From positions 1 through 34,339 of the forward strand of contig JAIPJN010000005.1 in assembly GCA_021734125.1 (NCBI GenBank): a stretch of DNA of 34,339 nt, written 5' to 3'. The first letter of the stretch is position 1. Each line of letters starts with the position of its first letter. The stretch comes from Patescibacteria group bacterium (lineage in GTDB: Bacteria > Patescibacteriota > Patescibacteriia > JAGPKW01). Shown piece after piece: positions 4,429 to 18,341 of the stretch. The notes beneath the pieces are model-generated. The model was not told the origin of the DNA, did no database searches, and saw only the letters and a program-made list of their open reading frames with translations. The translations under genes and the position numbers were made by a program.

Positions 4429-4989
4429 ATGAAAAAAATTAAAGTCTATTTTATTTTTATACTTTCTTTTTTATTTTTAATTATTTTATATATATTTTTT
4501 ATTTCTTTTATTTTAAAAGATTTGAGTAAAACTAGTTTAAAAAAATCTAATTTTAAAGTTTTAGAAAATGAAAATTTATTAGTTTCTAATAAGGTAGTAA
4601 AAAATGAAAAGTATAATTTTGAAATTCAATCTCCTTATAAAACTGAATTTAAAAATGATTATAAATTTTTAACTTTAAAAGATGAAAATTGCGTTTTAAA
4701 TATCGTTTCATTTATTAATAATGATATTAAAAATGTTTGTGATTGGGTTGAAAAAGAATGTTTAGATTTAGAATGTTCAAATTATATTTGTGAATATTAT
4801 AAAAATGATTGGTATAAAGTTAGATATTTTGGTGATTTTATGGGTTCTTCTGATTATGAACTTGTATATAAATATAATAATTATATTTATTCAGCTAATT
4901 TAGAGTGTTTTTCTTATGAATTGGATAATTATAAAAATCCTTTATTTTCGAATTTAATTTTAAATTTTAATGTAAAAAAAGATGATTAA
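4429..4989 (+). CDS. small membrane-anchored protein, unknown
   Basis: Family not recognised. The 186-residue product begins with a long hydrophobic helix (about residues 5-31, Phe/Ile/Leu-rich) that should anchor it in the membrane, with the rest outside. A polar linker of about 25 residues follows, then a compact domain of about 120 residues rich in Tyr, Asn and Asp. This domain holds six Cys in its middle and end (NCVLN, NVCDW, ECLDLECSNYICEYY, LECFSY), so disulfides are likely if it is exported. Its last 8 bases overlap the start of the next gene, so the two are translationally coupled. The neighbour is a secreted C39-like/beta-helix protein, and the pair may work together at the surface; that is inferred from coupling only. 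Confidence 0.7.
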   Translation: MKKIKVYFIFILSFLFLIILYIFFISFILKDLSKTSLKKSNFKVLENENLLVSNKVVKNEKYNFEIQSPYKTEFKNDYKFLTLKDENCVLNIVSFINNDIKNVCDWVEKECLDLECSNYICEYYKNDWYKVRYFGDFMGSSDYELVYKYNNYIYSANLECFSYELDNYKNPLFSNLILNFNVKKDD

Positions 4990-7702
4990 AAAAATACTAA
5001 AATTATTTATATTAATAACTATTTTGTTTTTTTATAGAAATACTTATGCAAAAATTATAGAAAATGTATTATTTAAATCTCAAGTTCCTCCTGGGTCTTG
5101 GAGTAGGACTTTAAATTGTGGCCAAACTAGCGTAATTATTGCTAATTCTTATTATAATAATTCATCTATATCTGAAGAAGATATAAAAAATATTGATATT
5201 TGGTTAAATGAAAAATTTTCTGATCCTATAAGAGATTTTAATGGATATTATACTAATACTACTAAATTAAAAACTTTATGTTCTGATTATTTTGATATGG
5301 ATTATTGCACTATAAATTCTGGGGAAAATTTATTTTCTTTTTTAAAAGAGCAAATAAATTTAGGTAATTTATCAATTTTACAAGTTAGAGTAAAAATGAA
5401 ACTTACTAAAGTTCCTCATTTTATGGTTTTTTTAGGGTATGATAATGATTTTGTTTATTTTCATGATCCTGGTCAGTCTAAAGGAAGCTATGTTAAATTT
5501 AAAATACAAGATTTTTTAGAAGTTTGGGAAAATCAAAATTTTAATTATTTATTATTTCAAAAAAATAAAAAAGAAGACAAAGAAGATGAGGTTGTAAATT
5601 TTTTAAAAATAAAAGAAGTAAATGCTAAAGAAAATAAAAATCTTGAAAATAATATTATAATTGATGAAAATAATGACGAAAATATTGAAAATAATGATGA
5701 AATTGATGATGCTATAATTGATAATGAAAATAATAATGTAGGAGCGAACAATGTTTCCCCAATTAACGAAAATGATTCAAATGCAAATAATGAAGATGAT
5801 GACGAAAATATTGAAAATGATGATGATGTAGGGGCGAACATTGTTCGCCCAATTGATGAAAATAATTTAGATAATAATGTAGGGGCGAACATTGTTCGCC
5901 CAATTGATGAACATGATTTAGATGATAATTCTGAACAAGAAGAAGAATATGGCTATATTACTAATGAAAATATATTAGTTTTAGGGCCTTATTTAAAAAT
6001 AGATTTAAATCCTCATCATGCTTCTACATCAACTCCAAAGGTTGATGTAGAGGAGAACGGTGTTCTCCCGATTGATGATGAAAATAATGATAATAACGAT
6101 GAGGATGAAAATGATGATAATAATAGTGACGAAAATACTGAAAATACCGATGATAATAATGACGAAAATACCGAAAACATCGAAAACGATGAAAATAACG
6201 ATAATGACAATAATGATGAAAACATTGAAAATAACGATAATGACAATAATGATGAAAACATTGAAAATGATGATAATAACAATAATGATGAAAATAACGA
6301 TGATGACGAAAATGATGATAATAATAATGACGAAAATGATGAAAACATTGAAAATGATGATAATAACAATAATGATGAAAATACTGAAAATACCGATGAT
6401 AATAATGACGAAAATACCGAAAATATTGTAAACGATGAAAACAATAATAATGATGAAAATAATGATGATGACGAAAATGACGAAAACGAAAATGATGGAA
6501 ATGATGAAGCTGATGAAAATGAAGAAAGTTTAGAGGTTAATAATTTATTTGGAGAATTAAATTCTGATATTACCTTAACCCCAGAAATTCCTTATACTAT
6601 AAATAGTGAATTTATTGTTCCTCAAAACGTAATATTAACAATATTACCTGGTGTTAAAATTTTATTTGGTGTAAATGGATCTTTAATTGTTGAAGGTAAA
6701 ATAGAATCTTTAGGTTCTTCTCAAAATAAAATTATTTTTACTACAAGTAAAACTGAAAATCCTGTAGAAAATTCTTGGAAATGGATAAAAATAAAGAATA
6801 GTGGTGAAGCAGTTTTTAATTGGACTATTATTGAATATGGTGGTTATGATTATTTATCAGGTGAAAAAAGAGCTCCTATAATAATTGATGGTGGTTATTT
6901 AGATGCTGATAATTTATATATTAAAAATATTGATAATGATTGTATAAAAGCAAATTTTTCTTATCTTAATATAAAAAATTCAAGTTTTAAAAATTGTAGA
7001 TATGGTTTAAATTTAACTAATTCCGAAGGTATTATAAAAGATTCTTTATTTTTAGAAAATTTTAATGGTTTTGTAATAAATAATTCTTTTTCTGATTTAA
7101 TTTTAAAAAATAATTCTATAAATAATTCTTTAGATTATTCTATAAAATTAATAAATTCTGTTCCTATGATTATTGATATGAATTATTCAGATAATAAATA
7201 TGATGAAATATTTTTAGATTTAAATTTAGATTTTGGAGATTATGTTTTAAGTAAAGGTATTTATTATGTTTTAAAAGTTAATTTATCAGAAAATACTAAT
7301 TTTACAATATCTCCTGGATGTGTTTTTAAGTCTTATAATTCTGGTTATTTTTCAGGAAGTTGGTATGTTAGATCAAATATTTTTAATGCTGTAGGAATGG
7401 AAAATTCTCCTATTATTTTTGATTCTTATTATGAAAATCCAGAACTTAATCAAAGGTGGGGAAAAATAAATTTTTATAATAATAATTTTTTAAATGCTGA
7501 AAATGTAATAATAAAAAATGGTGGTAGAAATTATTTTTTAGGAGAAAAAGGGTTTCCTATTTATTTAGAAAATGTAAAAAATATAAATGCTTTAAATATT
7601 TATTTATATAATAATTTTGAAAATGATTATTTTTATAAAAATAATTTAGAGGAATATACTTATAATCTAAATAATATTTATATAAATGATGAGGAAATAT
7701 AA
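4982..7702 (+). CDS. secreted C39-like cysteine peptidase domain + Asn/Asp/Glu linker + beta-helix
   Basis: This is a 906-residue mosaic. A signal peptide covers about 1-23, with cleavage likely after TYA. Residues about 26-190 look like a Peptidase_C39_2 domain: LNCGQTS places Cys46 as nucleophile, PHFMVFLGY gives His146 and YFHDPG gives Asp162, so the triad appears intact. Residues about 195-520 are almost only Asn, Asp, Glu and Ile, built from AAT/GAT/GAA triplets. They are interrupted by four peptides of the type VGANIVRPIDE that are encoded by GTAG-headed palindromes. From about 525 to the end it reads as a parallel beta-helix (PQNVILTILPGVKILFGVNG, then NxxIxxS-type coils). No cell-wall sorting signal is seen. 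It is likely an exported adhesin or enzyme on a flexible stalk; the substrate is unknown. Confidence 0.8.
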   Translation: MIKKILKLFILITILFFYRNTYAKIIENVLFKSQVPPGSWSRTLNCGQTSVIIANSYYNNSSISEEDIKNIDIWLNEKFSDPIRDFNGYYTNTTKLKTLCSDYFDMDYCTINSGENLFSFLKEQINLGNLSILQVRVKMKLTKVPHFMVFLGYDNDFVYFHDPGQSKGSYVKFKIQDFLEVWENQNFNYLLFQKNKKEDKEDEVVNFLKIKEVNAKENKNLENNIIIDENNDENIENNDEIDDAIIDNENNNVGANNVSPINENDSNANNEDDDENIENDDDVGANIVRPIDENNLDNNVGANIVRPIDEHDLDDNSEQEEEYGYITNENILVLGPYLKIDLNPHHASTSTPKVDVEENGVLPIDDENNDNNDEDENDDNNSDENTENTDDNNDENTENIENDENNDNDNNDENIENNDNDNNDENIENDDNNNNDENNDDDENDDNNNDENDENIENDDNNNNDENTENTDDNNDENTENIVNDENNNNDENNDDDENDENENDGNDEADENEESLEVNNLFGELNSDITLTPEIPYTINSEFIVPQNVILTILPGVKILFGVNGSLIVEGKIESLGSSQNKIIFTTSKTENPVENSWKWIKIKNSGEAVFNWTIIEYGGYDYLSGEKRAPIIIDGGYLDADNLYIKNIDNDCIKANFSYLNIKNSSFKNCRYGLNLTNSEGIIKDSLFLENFNGFVINNSFSDLILKNNSINNSLDYSIKLINSVPMIIDMNYSDNKYDEIFLDLNLDFGDYVLSKGIYYVLKVNLSENTNFTISPGCVFKSYNSGYFSGSWYVRSNIFNAVGMENSPIIFDSYYENPELNQRWGKINFYNNNFLNAENVIIKNGGRNYFLGEKGFPIYLENVKNINALNIYLYNNFENDYFYKNNLEEYTYNLNNIYINDEEI
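5738..5770 (+). repeat. GTAG-headed palindrome, in frame, copy 1 (degenerate)
   Basis: GTAGGAGCGAACAATGTTTC then CCCAATTAACGAA. It has the same layout as the two perfect copies downstream, but the outer stem is decayed: an inner AACA/TGTT pairing remains, with several mismatches outside. It encodes VGANNVSPINE. Looks like an older copy. Confidence 0.7.
5828..5860 (+). repeat. GTAG-headed palindrome, in frame, copy 2
   Basis: GTAG is followed by a perfect 9-pair inverted repeat with one central base, GGGCGAACATTGTTCGCCC (5832-5850), then AATTGATGAA. It is far more G+C-rich than its surroundings and encodes VGANIVRPIDE. Over 33 bases it is identical to copy 3. Confidence 0.85.
5879..5911 (+). 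repeat. GTAG-headed palindrome, in frame, copy 3
   Basis: Identical over 33 bases to copy 2 (palindrome at 5883-5901), 51 bases downstream, in the same reading frame and encoding the same VGANIVRPIDE peptide. The flanking Asn/Asp codons differ. Confidence 0.85.
6024..6051 (+). repeat. perfect hairpin abutting palindrome copy 4
   Basis: CTACATCAAC (6024-6033) pairs with GTTGATGTAG (6041-6050) around a 7-base loop. One more T-A pair lies outside. The right arm ends in the GTAG that heads the next palindrome, so two hairpins share this tetranucleotide. It lies inside the coding region. Confidence 0.7.
6047..6079 (+). repeat. GTAG-headed palindrome, in frame, copy 4 (different core)
   Basis: GTAG, then GGAGAACGGTGTTCTCC (6052-6068, a 7-pair stem with 3-base loop), then CCGATTGATGAT. 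The frame of the element is kept (encodes VEENGVLPIDD), but the stem sequence differs from copies 2 and 3 with compensating changes in both arms. Confidence 0.75.
6080..6530 (+). repeat. AAT/GAT/GAA triplet low-complexity tract
   Basis: About 450 bases made of AAT, AAC, GAT, GAC and GAA codons with occasional ATT or ACT. They encode Asn/Asp/Glu blocks such as NNDENIENDDNN in imperfect tandem. Because of the triplet pattern all frames stay open here, which produces long false ORFs on both strands. Likely prone to length change by slippage. Confidence 0.85.
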
Positions 7703-7778: not shown

Positions 7779-10700
7779 ATGAAACTTATTATATCACTTT
7801 TTAATGCATTACAAGAAGGAGTATTCTATCTTTCTAATATAATTATGAAAGGATATAGTTTTATTATGAATATTACTTCTACGGGTGTTAATGAGCCTGG
7901 AATTGTTGATGTTTGGATGATGTTAAGAGATATATGTAATATGTTTTTTATACTTATATTACTTATAATAGGTATTTCTACAATATTAGGTATAAAAAAA
8001 TATAGTTATAGAAAAAATCTAATTAATGTTTTAATATCAGCTTTTTTAATAAATTATAGTAAGGTTATTGTAGGTATGATGATAGATTTTGCTCAGATAT
8101 TTATAATACCTTTTAACGATGCAATTTCTAATAGTATTAGTTTAATAACACATCCTGCTTTTGTCATAGATGCTGGAGTAAGTAGTGTTTGGGCTGCTAT
8201 ATTAGGTTTTATTTTTTCTTTAGCATTTTTTGCTGTTGCTATAATAGCTTTAGTATATTCTTTAATCAGGCTAGTTTTTATATGGATAACTATTGCAATA
8301 TCTCCTATAATTGTTTTAGGTTATGGGGTCCCTTTTGATAAAGTTAAAAAAAGTTTGAAAGGATTTTTTCAAAAATTTATTTCTTTTCTAATGGGAGGAA
8401 TATTATTATCTTTTTTTATGTGGTTTGCTCTTTATATATTATCTTCGAGTTCTAGTGGTATGGTAGAAAATATAAAAAATGATACTTATTTTTATGTTCA
8501 TTCTGCTAATAGTGAAACTGAAGAGGTTAATATTAGTGGGTCAAATATGATGTTAATGATTGTTTCTTTAGTTTTTTTAATTTATGCTCAAAAATTTGCT
8601 ATAAGCTCTTCTAAACAAGCTGGAAATTTTGCAGGAGATATTGCTTCAAAAGCTAATTCTATTGGAATGAAACCCCTCAATAAATTAAAAGGTTTAGGTT
8701 TAAAATCCGCTAAATTAGGAAAGAGCACTTTAAAAGGAGCTGCAAAAGGAGCTGCTAATATACCAAAGAATTATGTAAGTTCTGCTTCTAGTAATGTTTT
8801 TAAAACAGGTCTTTCTTCTTTAAGAAACAAAAGTAATTTTTTTGATAGAAAAATGTCTAATCGTGAGGAGAGATTAAAGATGGGGAATGAAGCTTTTAGA
8901 CAACAAAGAACTGATAATTATATGTATGGAGGAACTCCAAGTTCAAAAGGTTCTATTAAGAAAGAAACTTTAGAAAGTTTAAAAAGAAATAAAAGTATGG
9001 ATTTAGCAAAATTAAAATCTGAAGGAGCTTCTGTTTCTGAAATAAAACTTGCTAAGTTTAATTGGGATTTAAAAACAAAAGAGAAAGAAATGCATAATAG
9101 TAGAAATAAATTAAAAAGTGCTTCTTCTCCTGATGAAAAAGATAAAATACAAAAAGAATTAAATACAAAAAGAGCTGAATTTTCTAAACTTAAAGGTGAT
9201 AAAGCTAAATATATAAATGAATTAAAAGATATACAATTTGGTAAATCTGCTTCTTCTGAAGATAGCTCTCAATTAAAAGATATTAAAGGTATAATGGATA
9301 ATATAGGAACTGGTGAAAATATTAATTTATCAACAGAATATTCTGATTTATTAGGAAAAGATGGAAAATTAAAGAAAAATATTACTTCTGATAGCAGAAA
9401 AGAAATTATGGCTACAATAATATCTAAGATGAAAAATAAAAATCTAAAAGGTAAAGACGAAGAATTTATAGAAAATAATTCTGCTTTGTTTAGAACTATG
9501 AATCAAGATGTTTTATCTACTATGAATTCTCAAATAGATAAAAATTACAGTGATGATGAACGTGTTAAGAAATTTAAACAAAAAATAAAAAATCCTGGAA
9601 CTTTTGAATTAAGTGATAAAGAAAATGCTGATATAGAAAAAGGTGATAAATATAAAGAATATCAAGATTTAATAAATGAGGCTTTTTCTGAAGTTAAAAA
9701 TATAAAAACTGAAGAAGAAAGGGATGAGAAATTAGGAGAATTAGATAAAAAAGGTGTTAAAGAGGATTTTAAAGAATTATTTAAAAAACAAGCTGATCTT
9801 ATTATTTCAAGAAAAGATCTAGAAGAAAGAAGAAAAATAATTTCTAGAAAAAGAGAGGAATTAGATGCAATTGTTGATACATCATATTATTCTAAAGAAA
9901 AATATGAAAAAGATATTAAAGAAATTTCTGATTTAGAAAAAGAATATAAAAAAGAAGAAAAAGACTATAAAAAATTAAAAAAACAAATTTCTTCTAAAAA
10001 AATAGAAGATTTAGATTTGGGTTTTATTAATAAAAAAGAAACTAATGAAGATGCTAGTTCTGATGATTGGGATAATAAAGGTTTTGAAGATAATTATGAA
10101 GGATTTGGAGAATCAAATTCTTCTAGTCAATCTCAAGATCAAGGTAAATCTGAAGATGCTAGTTCTGATGATTGGGATAATAAAGGATTTGGAGATGGGG
10201 GTTTTGGAGAATCTAATTTTTCTAATCAATCTCAGAATGGAAGTTCTAAAAATCAATCTGGAAGTTCTTCTAACCAATCTCAGTCTGAGTCTAATGCAGG
10301 ATTTAAATCTGAAAGCACTACAAACCAATCTCAAAATAAAGAAAATTCTGGGAAATCTGAAAGTGGAGATTCTAATAGTCAAGGAAATAATGGAGGACAA
10401 AGTTTTAATAATCAGTCTAAAAATCAAGAAAAATCTGGTTCTAATAAAAAATCTCAATTTCAAAATTCAGAGGCATTTAAAAATAATAGAACTTCTAATT
10501 TTAGTAAAAAGAGGTCTTCTGGTAGAAAGGCTAATAGTTCAATGAAAAATGATTCTAATCTTAAATATGCACAAAAAAAGAAAAAAGCTAAAGAATCAGA
10601 TAAAGATAATTCTTTTAATGACAACAATATAAATAATTTTGAAGATAATTTAGAAAAAGAAAAAGTAGAAAATAAAGGAAAAACTTATAAAGAAACAAAA

Positions 10701-10835
10701 AATAAAAGAAGAAGAAAAGCTCGAAAATCAAGTGGTACAAAGAATTTTTCTAAAAATCAAGAAACATCAGAAAAAACTGAACAGTCTGATTCTAGTGGGA
10801 ATTCTAAAAATAATAGAGAAAATAAAGGTTTTTAA
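7779..10835 (+). CDS. VirB6/TrbL-like polytopic membrane protein with a 700-residue tail
   Basis: This 1018-residue protein has about 290 N-terminal residues carrying six or more hydrophobic segments (roughly 50-70, 85-115, 130-165, 170-190, 198-225, 250-268). Their order and motifs (FIWITIAISPIIVLGYGVP, then a loop and FLMGGILLSFFMWFALYIL) match the VirB6/TrbL family, the inner-membrane channel part of type IV secretion systems. The remaining 700 or so residues are hydrophilic: a Lys/Glu/Ser-rich coiled-coil-like stretch to about 750, then a Ser/Asn/Gln-rich part with a 105-base tandem duplication (EDASSDDWDNKGF twice), then a Lys/Arg-rich end. Such a tail is far longer than in classical VirB6. 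First gene of an eight-gene operon that includes PrgI and VirB4. Family call is confident; the tail has no assigned role. Confidence 0.8.
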   Translation: MKLIISLFNALQEGVFYLSNIIMKGYSFIMNITSTGVNEPGIVDVWMMLRDICNMFFILILLIIGISTILGIKKYSYRKNLINVLISAFLINYSKVIVGMMIDFAQIFIIPFNDAISNSISLITHPAFVIDAGVSSVWAAILGFIFSLAFFAVAIIALVYSLIRLVFIWITIAISPIIVLGYGVPFDKVKKSLKGFFQKFISFLMGGILLSFFMWFALYILSSSSSGMVENIKNDTYFYVHSANSETEEVNISGSNMMLMIVSLVFLIYAQKFAISSSKQAGNFAGDIASKANSIGMKPLNKLKGLGLKSAKLGKSTLKGAAKGAANIPKNYVSSASSNVFKTGLSSLRNKSNFFDRKMSNREERLKMGNEAFRQQRTDNYMYGGTPSSKGSIKKETLESLKRNKSMDLAKLKSEGASVSEIKLAKFNWDLKTKEKEMHNSRNKLKSASSPDEKDKIQKELNTKRAEFSKLKGDKAKYINELKDIQFGKSASSEDSSQLKDIKGIMDNIGTGENINLSTEYSDLLGKDGKLKKNITSDSRKEIMATIISKMKNKNLKGKDEEFIENNSALFRTMNQDVLSTMNSQIDKNYSDDERVKKFKQKIKNPGTFELSDKENADIEKGDKYKEYQDLINEAFSEVKNIKTEEERDEKLGELDKKGVKEDFKELFKKQADLIISRKDLEERRKIISRKREELDAIVDTSYYSKEKYEKDIKEISDLEKEYKKEEKDYKKLKKQISSKKIEDLDLGFINKKETNEDASSDDWDNKGFEDNYEGFGESNSSSQSQDQGKSEDASSDDWDNKGFGDGGFGESNFSNQSQNGSSKNQSGSSSNQSQSESNAGFKSESTTNQSQNKENSGKSESGDSNSQGNNGGQSFNNQSKNQEKSGSNKKSQFQNSEAFKNNRTSNFSKKRSSGRKANSSMKNDSNLKYAQKKKKAKESDKDNSFNDNNINNFEDNLEKEKVENKGKTYKETKNKRRRKARKSSGTKNFSKNQETSEKTEQSDSSGNSKNNRENKGF
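10047..10188 (+). repeat. tandem duplication in the VirB6-like tail
   Basis: The segment starting GAAGATGCTAGTTCTGATGA recurs at a spacing of 105 bases (10047 and 10152). It is identical for at least 35 bases and encodes EDASSDDWDNKGF twice. The following segments (EGFGESN and GGFGESN) are also related, which marks a recent in-frame duplication. Confidence 0.75.
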
Positions 10836-10864: not shown

Positions 10865-12463
10865 ATGGATAAAATTTTAGAGATAATTTTATCTCCTGAT
10901 TCTGAAAAATTTAGAGGTGATCTTTTTGAGAGATATGAAATTTCTGATGATGATATTTTTATTATAAATTCTAATTTTAAGAAATTTTTTTCTGGTGAAA
11001 TTAAATTTTTAGATTTTTTAAAAGAGTGTTCCGATCTTAATATAAAATTAATAGAAGAATATTTAGATTTTCATTTAAAATTAATAGAAGAGTATTTAGA
11101 TAGTGATTATAATACTTTGATGAAAGATTTTTCTAATTTTATTATTTCAAAAAATAATATAAATGGTAGTGATCAGCCATTGTTAAATAAAAACGATGAT
11201 GTTTTGAATAAAACAGGTGAAAAAAATAAAAAAAATAAAAATGATAAAAAAGGTAGTGGTCAGAGATCTCTGACCAATAAAGAAAATATAGGTAGTGACC
11301 AACGATCGTTGGTCAATACAAATTCATATAAACATGGTGATATAAAAAATATTTTGGAAGATGATAAAAATAAACGTAGTGATCAGCCATTGTTAAATAA
11401 AAACGATGATGTTTTGAATAAAACAGGTGAAAAAAATAAAAATGATAAAAAAGGTAGTGGTCAGAGATCTCTGACCAATAAAGATGATAAAACAGAAAAA
11501 TATGCTGAAGAAATTAGAAAAATTATAAAAGAAGAAATAAATCAAGATTTTTTATTAGGTGCAAAAAATAAAAATAAGGAATTAACTGATGGCGTTTTTA
11601 ATCCTTTTGATAATCCTTCTTTAATTGTTGATGAAGTTATTAATATTATAGGACTTAGGTTTAAAAATGAAAAAAATAGAGATAAATTTTATTCTATATT
11701 AATAAAATATTTGAAAAATATTAGGAATAAACATCAGTCTTATGAAATTTTAGTAGATGATAAAATAGGTTTATCTGTTTCTAAAATTGCTGCTGAAAAA
11801 ATATTGAATCTTACCGAAAAAATAAAAAAACAAAAAGAGAACAATCTACTTGAATATAAAAAAAGTAAATTAATAAAAAAAGAAAAAAAAGATTCAGTAA
11901 ATAACATATTAAATGTAAAATCTGATAATTCTATAGAAAATAAAAAAAGCAGTGGTCAGTCACAGCTTGTTAATAAAAAAAATAAAGATTTAACTGGATT
12001 AAAAACAGAAGAAGATATTTTTCACTTTTATGATGGAAATATTGAAGAGTTATATATGAAAAGAGAAAAAGAAAGATCTAAGGAAATAGATATGGATATG
12101 GATATTGGCGGTGATATTCATAGAGATTTTTTATCCAATAGATTAGTTGGCCCTGTTGAAGAATTAGCTTATTTTACAATTATTGATTTTAGAAATTTAG
12201 GAGAAGATTTAGATGAAAGAATAAAAAAATTAAAACAGAAAATTAATGTTTTGGAAGATTATGGTTTGAATAAAAAAATCCTTGGAATAAAAGCTTGGCT
12301 TAATTCAGAAGTTTCAGAAGTTTATAAAGCTATTTTAAATGAAAGTATTGAATTTGGTAGCATAGAAAATGCTGTTTTAAAAAGAAAAGAAAAGGGTCGT
12401 TTATATTTGACAGAAGAAGAAATAAATAAAATAGCAGAACTTAATAGGGAATTTAGAATTTAA
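10865..12463 (+). CDS. conserved-looking operon protein carrying palindrome-derived peptides, unknown
   Basis: 532 residues, no signal peptide or membrane segment. The N-terminal 90 residues are acidic with a tandem KLIEEYLD repeat (about 61-79). Residues about 100-215 are Lys/Asn-rich and hold five copies of peptides such as GSDQPLLNK and GSGQRSLTNK encoded by GTAG-headed palindromes; a sixth lies near 362. From about 238 a folded helical region follows (LIVDEVINIIGLRF). The last 110 residues form the most orderly part (LVGPVEELAYFTIIDFRNLG, then YLTEEEINKIAELNREFRI). From memory of other Patescibacteria, similar C-terminal regions occur beside PrgI/VirB4, but no function is known to me. The ATG is preceded by AAAAGG, a weak possible ribosome site. 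It sits 29 bases after the VirB6-like gene and 3 bases before the PrgI gene. Confidence 0.7.
   Translation: MDKILEIILSPDSEKFRGDLFERYEISDDDIFIINSNFKKFFSGEIKFLDFLKECSDLNIKLIEEYLDFHLKLIEEYLDSDYNTLMKDFSNFIISKNNINGSDQPLLNKNDDVLNKTGEKNKKNKNDKKGSGQRSLTNKENIGSDQRSLVNTNSYKHGDIKNILEDDKNKRSDQPLLNKNDDVLNKTGEKNKNDKKGSGQRSLTNKDDKTEKYAEEIRKIIKEEINQDFLLGAKNKNKELTDGVFNPFDNPSLIVDEVINIIGLRFKNEKNRDKFYSILIKYLKNIRNKHQSYEILVDDKIGLSVSKIAAEKILNLTEKIKKQKENNLLEYKKSKLIKKEKKDSVNNILNVKSDNSIENKKSSGQSQLVNKKNKDLTGLKTEEDIFHFYDGNIEELYMKREKERSKEIDMDMDIGGDIHRDFLSNRLVGPVEELAYFTIIDFRNLGEDLDERIKKLKQKINVLEDYGLNKKILGIKAWLNSEVSEVYKAILNESIEFGSIENAVLKRKEKGRLYLTEEEINKIAELNREFRI
11166..11191 (+). repeat. GTAG element A1 (shortened, decayed palindrome)
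   Basis: GTAGTGATCAGCCATTGTTA then AATAAA. Left and right flanks match the perfect copies, but the core is 3 bases shorter and no longer pairs well. It encodes GSDQPLLNK in frame. Confidence 0.55.
11253..11281 (+). repeat. GTAG element A2 (perfect 20-base palindrome)
   Basis: GTAG, then TGGTCAGAGATCTCTGACCA (11257-11276), a perfect palindrome, then ATAAA. In frame, it encodes GSGQRSLTNK. Duplicated 201 bases downstream as A5. Confidence 0.85.
11292..11317 (+). repeat. GTAG element A3 (perfect palindrome, different core)
   Basis: GTAG, then TGACCAACGATCGTTGGTCA (11296-11315), a perfect 20-base palindrome, then AT. It has the same size and frame as A2 but a different, self-complementary core. 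Encodes GSDQRSLVN. Confidence 0.85.
11376..11401 (+). repeat. GTAG element A4 (copy of A1)
   Basis: Identical to A1 from GTAG onward, offset by 210 bases; part of the larger tandem duplication. Encodes RSDQPLLNK. Confidence 0.6.
11454..11482 (+). repeat. GTAG element A5 (copy of A2)
   Basis: Same perfect palindrome as A2 (11458-11477) and same peptide GSGQRSLTNK. It belongs to the segmental duplication of 11166-11282 into 11376-11483; the first copy has 9 extra bases of Lys/Asn codons between A1 and A2. Confidence 0.85.
11949..11977 (+). repeat. element A6 (decayed, GCAG head)
   Basis: GCAGTGGTCAGTCACAGCTT then GTTAATAAA aligns base for base in length with A2 (29 bases), but both the head (GCAG) and the right arm have changed. 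Encodes SGQSQLVNK. It lies about 470 bases from the other copies in the same gene and reads as an old insertion. Confidence 0.55.
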
Positions 12464-18214: not shown

Positions 18215-18302
18215 GCCGAGGTGGTGGAATTGGTAGACACGCAAGACTTAAAATCTTGTTTCATTTTATGAAGTGCGGGTTCAAGTCCCGCCCTCGGCAC
18301 CA
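18215..18302 (+). tRNA. tRNA-Leu (anticodon TAA)
   Basis: 88 bases with acceptor stem GCCGAGG / CCTCGGC, discriminator A and encoded CCA. Anticodon stem CAAGA / TCTTG with loop CTTAAAA gives anticodon TAA, reading UUA, a very frequent Leu codon here. A long variable arm typical of Leu tRNAs and a T arm with GGTTCAAGT are present. Confidence 0.97.
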
Positions 18303-18312
18303 ATATTAAAGC

Positions 18313-18341
18313 AGTGGGAACGCGCCTTGGCGCGTTCCTAC
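18313..18341 (-). repeat. intergenic GTAG-headed palindrome, also a likely terminator of tRNA-Leu
   Basis: On the minus strand it reads GTAGGAACGCGCCAAGGCGC then GTTCCCACT. A 10-pair stem, GGAACGCGCC / GGCGCGTTCC (18317-18326 with 18329-18338), closes on two bases. It has the same head and size as the in-frame elements but a different core. On the plus strand the stem is followed by TACAA and seven T, so it can serve as Rho-independent terminator 14 bases after the tRNA. It is a striking G+C peak in an A+T-rich gap; the rest of 18342-18435 holds nothing I recognise. Confidence 0.8.

Follow-up and report, generated by a model that had tools for sequence, protein, structure and literature searches.

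The window, by which we mean the whole stretch of 34,339 nucleotides analysed here (24% GC), contains at positions 10865–12463 of the plus strand a gene for a protein of 532 residues, to which no Pfam, NCBIfam or PHROG family was matched. On one side lies a membrane-protein gene (7779–10835), which its position suggests to be VirB6-like, and on the other a pair of PrgI-like and TraG-ATPase genes. The gene carries a set of short palindromes on its sense strand, denoted here as REP elements of family A. The original prediction placed three perfect 20-bp palindromes preceded by GTAG in the gene, TGGTCAGAGATCTCTGACCA twice and TGACCAACGATCGTTGGTCA once, and all three are present. A palindrome scan located GTAG + TGGTCAGAGATCTCTGACCA at 11253–11276 and GTAG + TGACCAACGATCGTTGGTCA at 11292–11315, read in frame as GSGQRSLTN and GSDQRSLVN, respectively; the 20-mer of the latter is also found at four other genomic loci. 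The third intact element, at 11454–11477, is a duplicate of the first.

Matching to the family identified two decayed elements, one at 11166–11189 (GTAGTGATCAGCCATTGTTAAATA) and its duplicate at 11376–11399. Each scores 19/24, compared with a best match of 13.8 on average and 17 at most in the composition-shuffled gene (n = 300). A MAFFT alignment reveals a direct duplication of 11163–11284 and 11375–11484, in which the two copies (approximately 110–120 bp) are the same except for a small indel and one base at the edge, and which contains the element pairs 11166 + 11253 and 11376 + 11454. One intact and one decayed copy were thus made by local duplication, leaving about three independent elements in the gene. 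Six elements had been claimed for it, of which these three intact and two decayed ones stand. The sixth (11949–11972, plus strand) has a GCAG head and a score of 16/24, within the range of the shuffled gene, and the alignment of this segment with two same-family orthologues has one-residue gaps only, so that no element-size insertion is present. Judging from the sequence, it is probably not a REP element. Across the window, six GTAG-headed palindromes score at least 9, against 0.05 expected from 20 first-order shuffles.

Further GTAG palindromes lie elsewhere in the window. The gene at 4982–7702 (906 residues) holds two intact elements of a second family, B (GTAG + GGGCGAACATTGTTCGCCC, at 5828–5850 and 5879–5901, plus strand), read in frame as VGANIVRP. 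It also contains a decayed copy at 5738–5760, read by eye, and a diverged, shorter palindrome at 6047–6068 (GGAGAACGGTGTTCTCC after GTAGA), both on the plus strand. A long low-complexity stretch of the protein, rich in Asp, Glu and Asn, is encoded at 5640–6450. The elements at 5738–6079 do share the GTAG head, as the earlier list of elements had it; the list omitted an intergenic palindrome of a third family, C (GTAG + GAACGCGCCAAGGCGCGTTC), at 18318–18341 on the minus strand. It belongs to a segment (18215–18341) in which a tRNA-Leu gene is followed within about 15 bp by the element. A scan for all families, covering approximately 282 kb of stretches, shows at least four GTAG families, the stems outside family A including GGGCGMACANTGTKCGCCC, GAACGCGCCNNGGCGCGTTC and a longer GAACAGGACGAY...RTCGTCCTGTTC; the counts for families A and B come from pattern searches of the whole assembly.

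Stem variation and dispersal of family A

The 663-kb assembly, which is approximately 70% complete, was searched with a degenerate pattern (GTAGKGRYCARNNATNNYTGRYCM) in which the two sides of the stem may vary independently, overlapping matches from double-foot copies being merged by hand. The search yielded 51 distinct exact-pattern loci with 22 distinct sequences, and 45 of the loci are perfect palindromes. Two-sided changes, the covariation between stem arms by which the prediction was to be checked, occur at six of the ten base pairs (1, 3, 4, 7, 8 and 9). Complementary letters fill 503 of 510 cells; when the 3′ letters were shuffled 2,000 times, a procedure that ignores the relatedness of copies, paired cells averaged 389 and reached 415 at most. 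When only the distinct sequences are counted, 213 of 220 cells are paired and the shuffle maximum is 178. Since the search itself fixed part of the stem and allowed only some letters at certain positions, the invariant pairs are uninformative, and the evidence consists of the six varying pairs.

Base pairs 3 and 4 are seen in all four combinations (GT, AC, GC and AT), so a literal inversion or swap of the outer arms was rejected. The “swapped” cores that had been described, TGGTCA/TGACCA and TGACCA/TGGTCA, both exist and are merely two of the four states of these pairs. Some cores contain HIP1, which we take to be GCGATCGC; this motif was set aside, as it is GTAG plus 20 bp that is conserved, and other cores carry CCATGG or AGATCT.

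The loci are spread over many contigs. For 42 of the 51, the surroundings were checked for ORF context and double-foot ends: 33 are outside long ORFs, while nine lie in stop-to-stop frames of at least 200 residues (an ORF-based count made with no gene predictor), and eight end in CTAC, giving the double-foot form GTAG...CTAC. The stem covariation, together with this dispersal largely outside long ORFs, indicates that the hairpin DNA is conserved and not the peptide, as first proposed: complementarity is kept while the letters change. A search of 381 genomes of the class matched the pattern in no more than three. Family A is therefore essentially absent from the class, which rules out a cross-species family alignment, and the covariation rests on the copies of one genome.

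RAYT-like transposase genes

Two RAYT-like ORFs are present in the genome, at 2993–3418 of contig C10 (ORF 1) and at 2719–3258 of contig C28 (ORF 2). ORF 1 matches the NCBIfam model NF047646 (REP_Tyr_transpos) with an E-value of 1e-16 and is above the cut-off of PF01797; ORF 2 scores 22.9 bits against the PF01797 cut-off of 23 bits. Both are under the curated cut-off of NF047646 (80 bits). The motifs are NHIH, WQ and YIIENP in ORF 1, and DHIH, WQ and YIRDNP in ORF 2. A search of PDB sequences with ORF 1 returned no match.

Four intact GTAG palindromes (GGGCGCACANTGTGCGCCC) bracket ORF 1; they are a family B variant, one compensated base pair apart from the window elements at 5828 and 5879. The GTAG head that the elements of 10865–12463 were said to have in common with those of 5738–6079 is indeed common to both, and a variant of the latter surrounds a RAYT-like gene. 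In ORF 2, an in-frame GTAG palindrome sits between the HUH and Y motifs, and the RAYT-like gene of a same-family genome (G001) likewise holds an internal in-frame GTAG palindrome; ORF 1, unlike these two, has none. Contig C28 (5773 bp) is very rich in REPs, with several GTAG families around and inside the RAYT-like gene. In this assembly of approximately 70% completeness, intact family A elements directly flank neither ORF, and family A is for this reason not attributed to either.

RAYT-like matches occur in 38 of the 57 genomes of the class that were searched, 17 of them over the curated cut-off. Several relatives (G010, G014, G026, G036, G055 and others) have many matches per genome, up to 18, and some matches in relatives are split in frame, which REP insertions within these genes could explain. 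Among 30 RAYT loci scanned, 29 of them outside the genome of the window, most have no GTAG palindrome in the fetched flanks; a general link between the RAYT gene of every relative and GTAG palindromes was accordingly dropped.

Comparison with described GTAG-tagged REPs

The available portion of Di Nocera et al. (2013, PMC3733652) describes GTAG-tagged REPs whose stem positions take alternative complementary residues, which are associated with RAYTs and some of which are intragenic; there the stems are 5–13 bp, the elements occur as singletons and in clusters, mostly in intergenic DNA, and some genomes have several families. The elements studied here resemble that superfamily, as far as it is covered there, in having a short palindrome with an unpaired GTAG on one side, in the large number of dispersed copies whose stems vary in a complementary manner (family A), and in being mostly intergenic with some intragenic copies (9 of 42 in long frames). 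The arrangement of a RAYT gene with GTAG repeats nearby (REPtron) is seen in ORF 1 with its four intact family B palindromes. A difference is that most stems in that portion of the paper are 6–9 bp with short loops, whereas family A is a loopless palindrome of 20 bp.

Another likeness is to TnpA_REP subclass 2.4 (RAYT group 4), for which internal in-frame REPs, reported as a unique feature, and double-foot GTAG...CTAC REPs have been published (PMC6006769); the same paper includes variable-stem GTAG-tagged REPs, among them intragenic ones. The internal in-frame REP is found here in the C28 and G001 ORFs, and the double foot at 8 of 42 family A loci. The motifs of ORFs 1 and 2, which are candidate members of the subclass, are close to the subclass motifs (NH[IFV]H, WQ and YIxNNP) and not exact, with DHIH in place of NHIH in ORF 2. 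The original prediction of a single class of mobile palindromes with a variable stem is partly supported by the covariation, the dispersal and the segment missing in relatives (see below), but the class is not new: GTAG REPs, including in-frame and double-foot forms, have already been described, and the present elements belong to that class.

Two other systems are partly similar. According to the accessible part of PMC3733652, the Rickettsia palindromic elements RPE-4 and RPE-6 are also short and palindromic and lie within protein genes of organisms with small genomes; they carry a CGTC tag instead of GTAG, with no transposase association reported in that part. PARCELs (PMC2996958) are likewise palindromic DNA that is translated, but form tandem amphipathic repeats of 25 residues, with no GTAG head or RAYT link in the abstract.

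The GTAG hosts named in the available text of PMC3733652 are Proteobacteria, Cyanobacteria, Chloroflexi and PVC, with Patescibacteria not among these. PMC6006769 mentions neither Patescibacteria nor Parcubacteria. No report of REP or RAYT in these groups was found in the open-access literature searched, and papers beyond it are possible. The host, an uncultured bacterium of very small size, probably belongs to Patescibacteria, judging by the named best matches of its TraG-type ATPase. The present results extend GTAG REPs and RAYT-like transposases to Patescibacteria, and the covarying family A stems are a usable data set on REP stem diversification.

Copies within genes and their origin

The REP-bearing segment of the window gene (11159–11485, about residues 99–207) is missing from the orthologues in two other same-family genomes, G001 and G002, which lack about 107 residues. 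In the glycyl-tRNA synthetase of contig C14, approximately 30 residues come from a GTAG palindrome together with 24-bp units derived from it; the in-frame array (11118–11220) consists of the REP followed by the tandem units QRSLTSTN, QRSLDNTN, QQSLTSTN and QKSLDN, and the insert is missing in all six relatives compared. REP-derived tandem units also form an N-terminal extension of TruB (C13:8498–8606) that is lacking in the same-family G001; the TruB of one more distant relative has a longer N-terminus, which is unrelated. A further copy is in the lysine-rich C-terminal tail of an S1-domain protein (C8). These empty sites were read from protein alignments between genera and represent absence in relatives, not insertion at an exact GTAG border. 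At the level of sequence comparison, the missing segments together with the dispersed copies speak against an origin by local duplication only. The in-frame copies in a conserved tRNA synthetase whose orthologues are without them would be clear cases in which mobile DNA has entered a protein; tRNA synthetase and tRNA pseudouridine synthase genes are among the intragenic hosts given in the available portion of PMC3733652.

In the sense orientation, the TAG of GTAG is always a stop codon in one frame, and a second frame meets TGA in most of the variants found inside genes. Seven sense copies lie in the window gene or in the S1-domain, glycyl-tRNA synthetase, TruB and C39-peptidase-like ORFs, and every one of them uses the remaining frame. 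The frame preference that had been noted is real in that these seven copies share one frame, but stop codons account for it at least in part; if only stop-free insertions survived, the observed frame use would follow.

The palindromes are, with high probability, GTAG-tagged REP elements spread by REP-associated tyrosine transposases (HUH, IS200/IS605-like). Each element would be a non-autonomous unit of approximately 24 bp, in which a GTAG guide that stays unpaired precedes a perfect hairpin stem. The transposase would recognise GTAG and the folded single strand and then insert copies; E. coli TnpA_REP recognises GTAG plus the hairpin (PMC8266576). Only stem variants that still fold would spread. 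Within genes, an insertion would be kept only where the frame is free of stops and the linker tolerant. In the window gene, the insertion would have fallen in a K/N-rich linker, and the region would then have grown by local duplication.

Alternatively, the palindromes could be non-mobile binding sites or RNA hairpins, such as terminators or sites for DNA-binding proteins, held in place by selection. Many copies are outside long ORFs, one lies directly after tRNA-Leu, and for REPs elsewhere PMC3733652 gives roles in termination and mRNA stabilisation as a hypothesis. Such fixed sites are nevertheless very unlikely, given that the GTAG head is unpaired, that in-frame copies lie within genes for glycyl-tRNA synthetase, TruB, an S1-domain protein and a RAYT-like protein, and that the near absence of family A from the class is as expected of a lineage-specific mobile family. 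Selection for the peptide GSxQRSLxN, in which local tandem duplication would have amplified the coding repeats and codon choice would have produced the palindrome as a side effect, would fit the real duplications in the window gene, the tandem QRSL-containing units without GTAG into which the glycyl-tRNA synthetase and TruB elements run, and the QRSL encoded by both intact window cores though all four codons differ, but it was rejected as extremely improbable because the copies outside long ORFs show the same covariation, in-gene copies also encode QPWL, and the GTAG head is kept though irrelevant to the peptide while copies vary in complementary pairs.

Taking the palindromes as transposase-spread REPs, it is conceivable, if somewhat doubtful, that this family supplies the lineage with new coding sequence, by in-frame invasion of housekeeping genes followed by expansion of the core into tandem coding repeats. 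Loopless stems that are open in one sense frame would then have entered glycyl-tRNA synthetase, TruB, the S1-domain protein and the secretion-operon gene of the window. The TruB and glycyl-tRNA synthetase arrays have the spacer ACAAATCA in common, and a pattern search found it in these two genes only.
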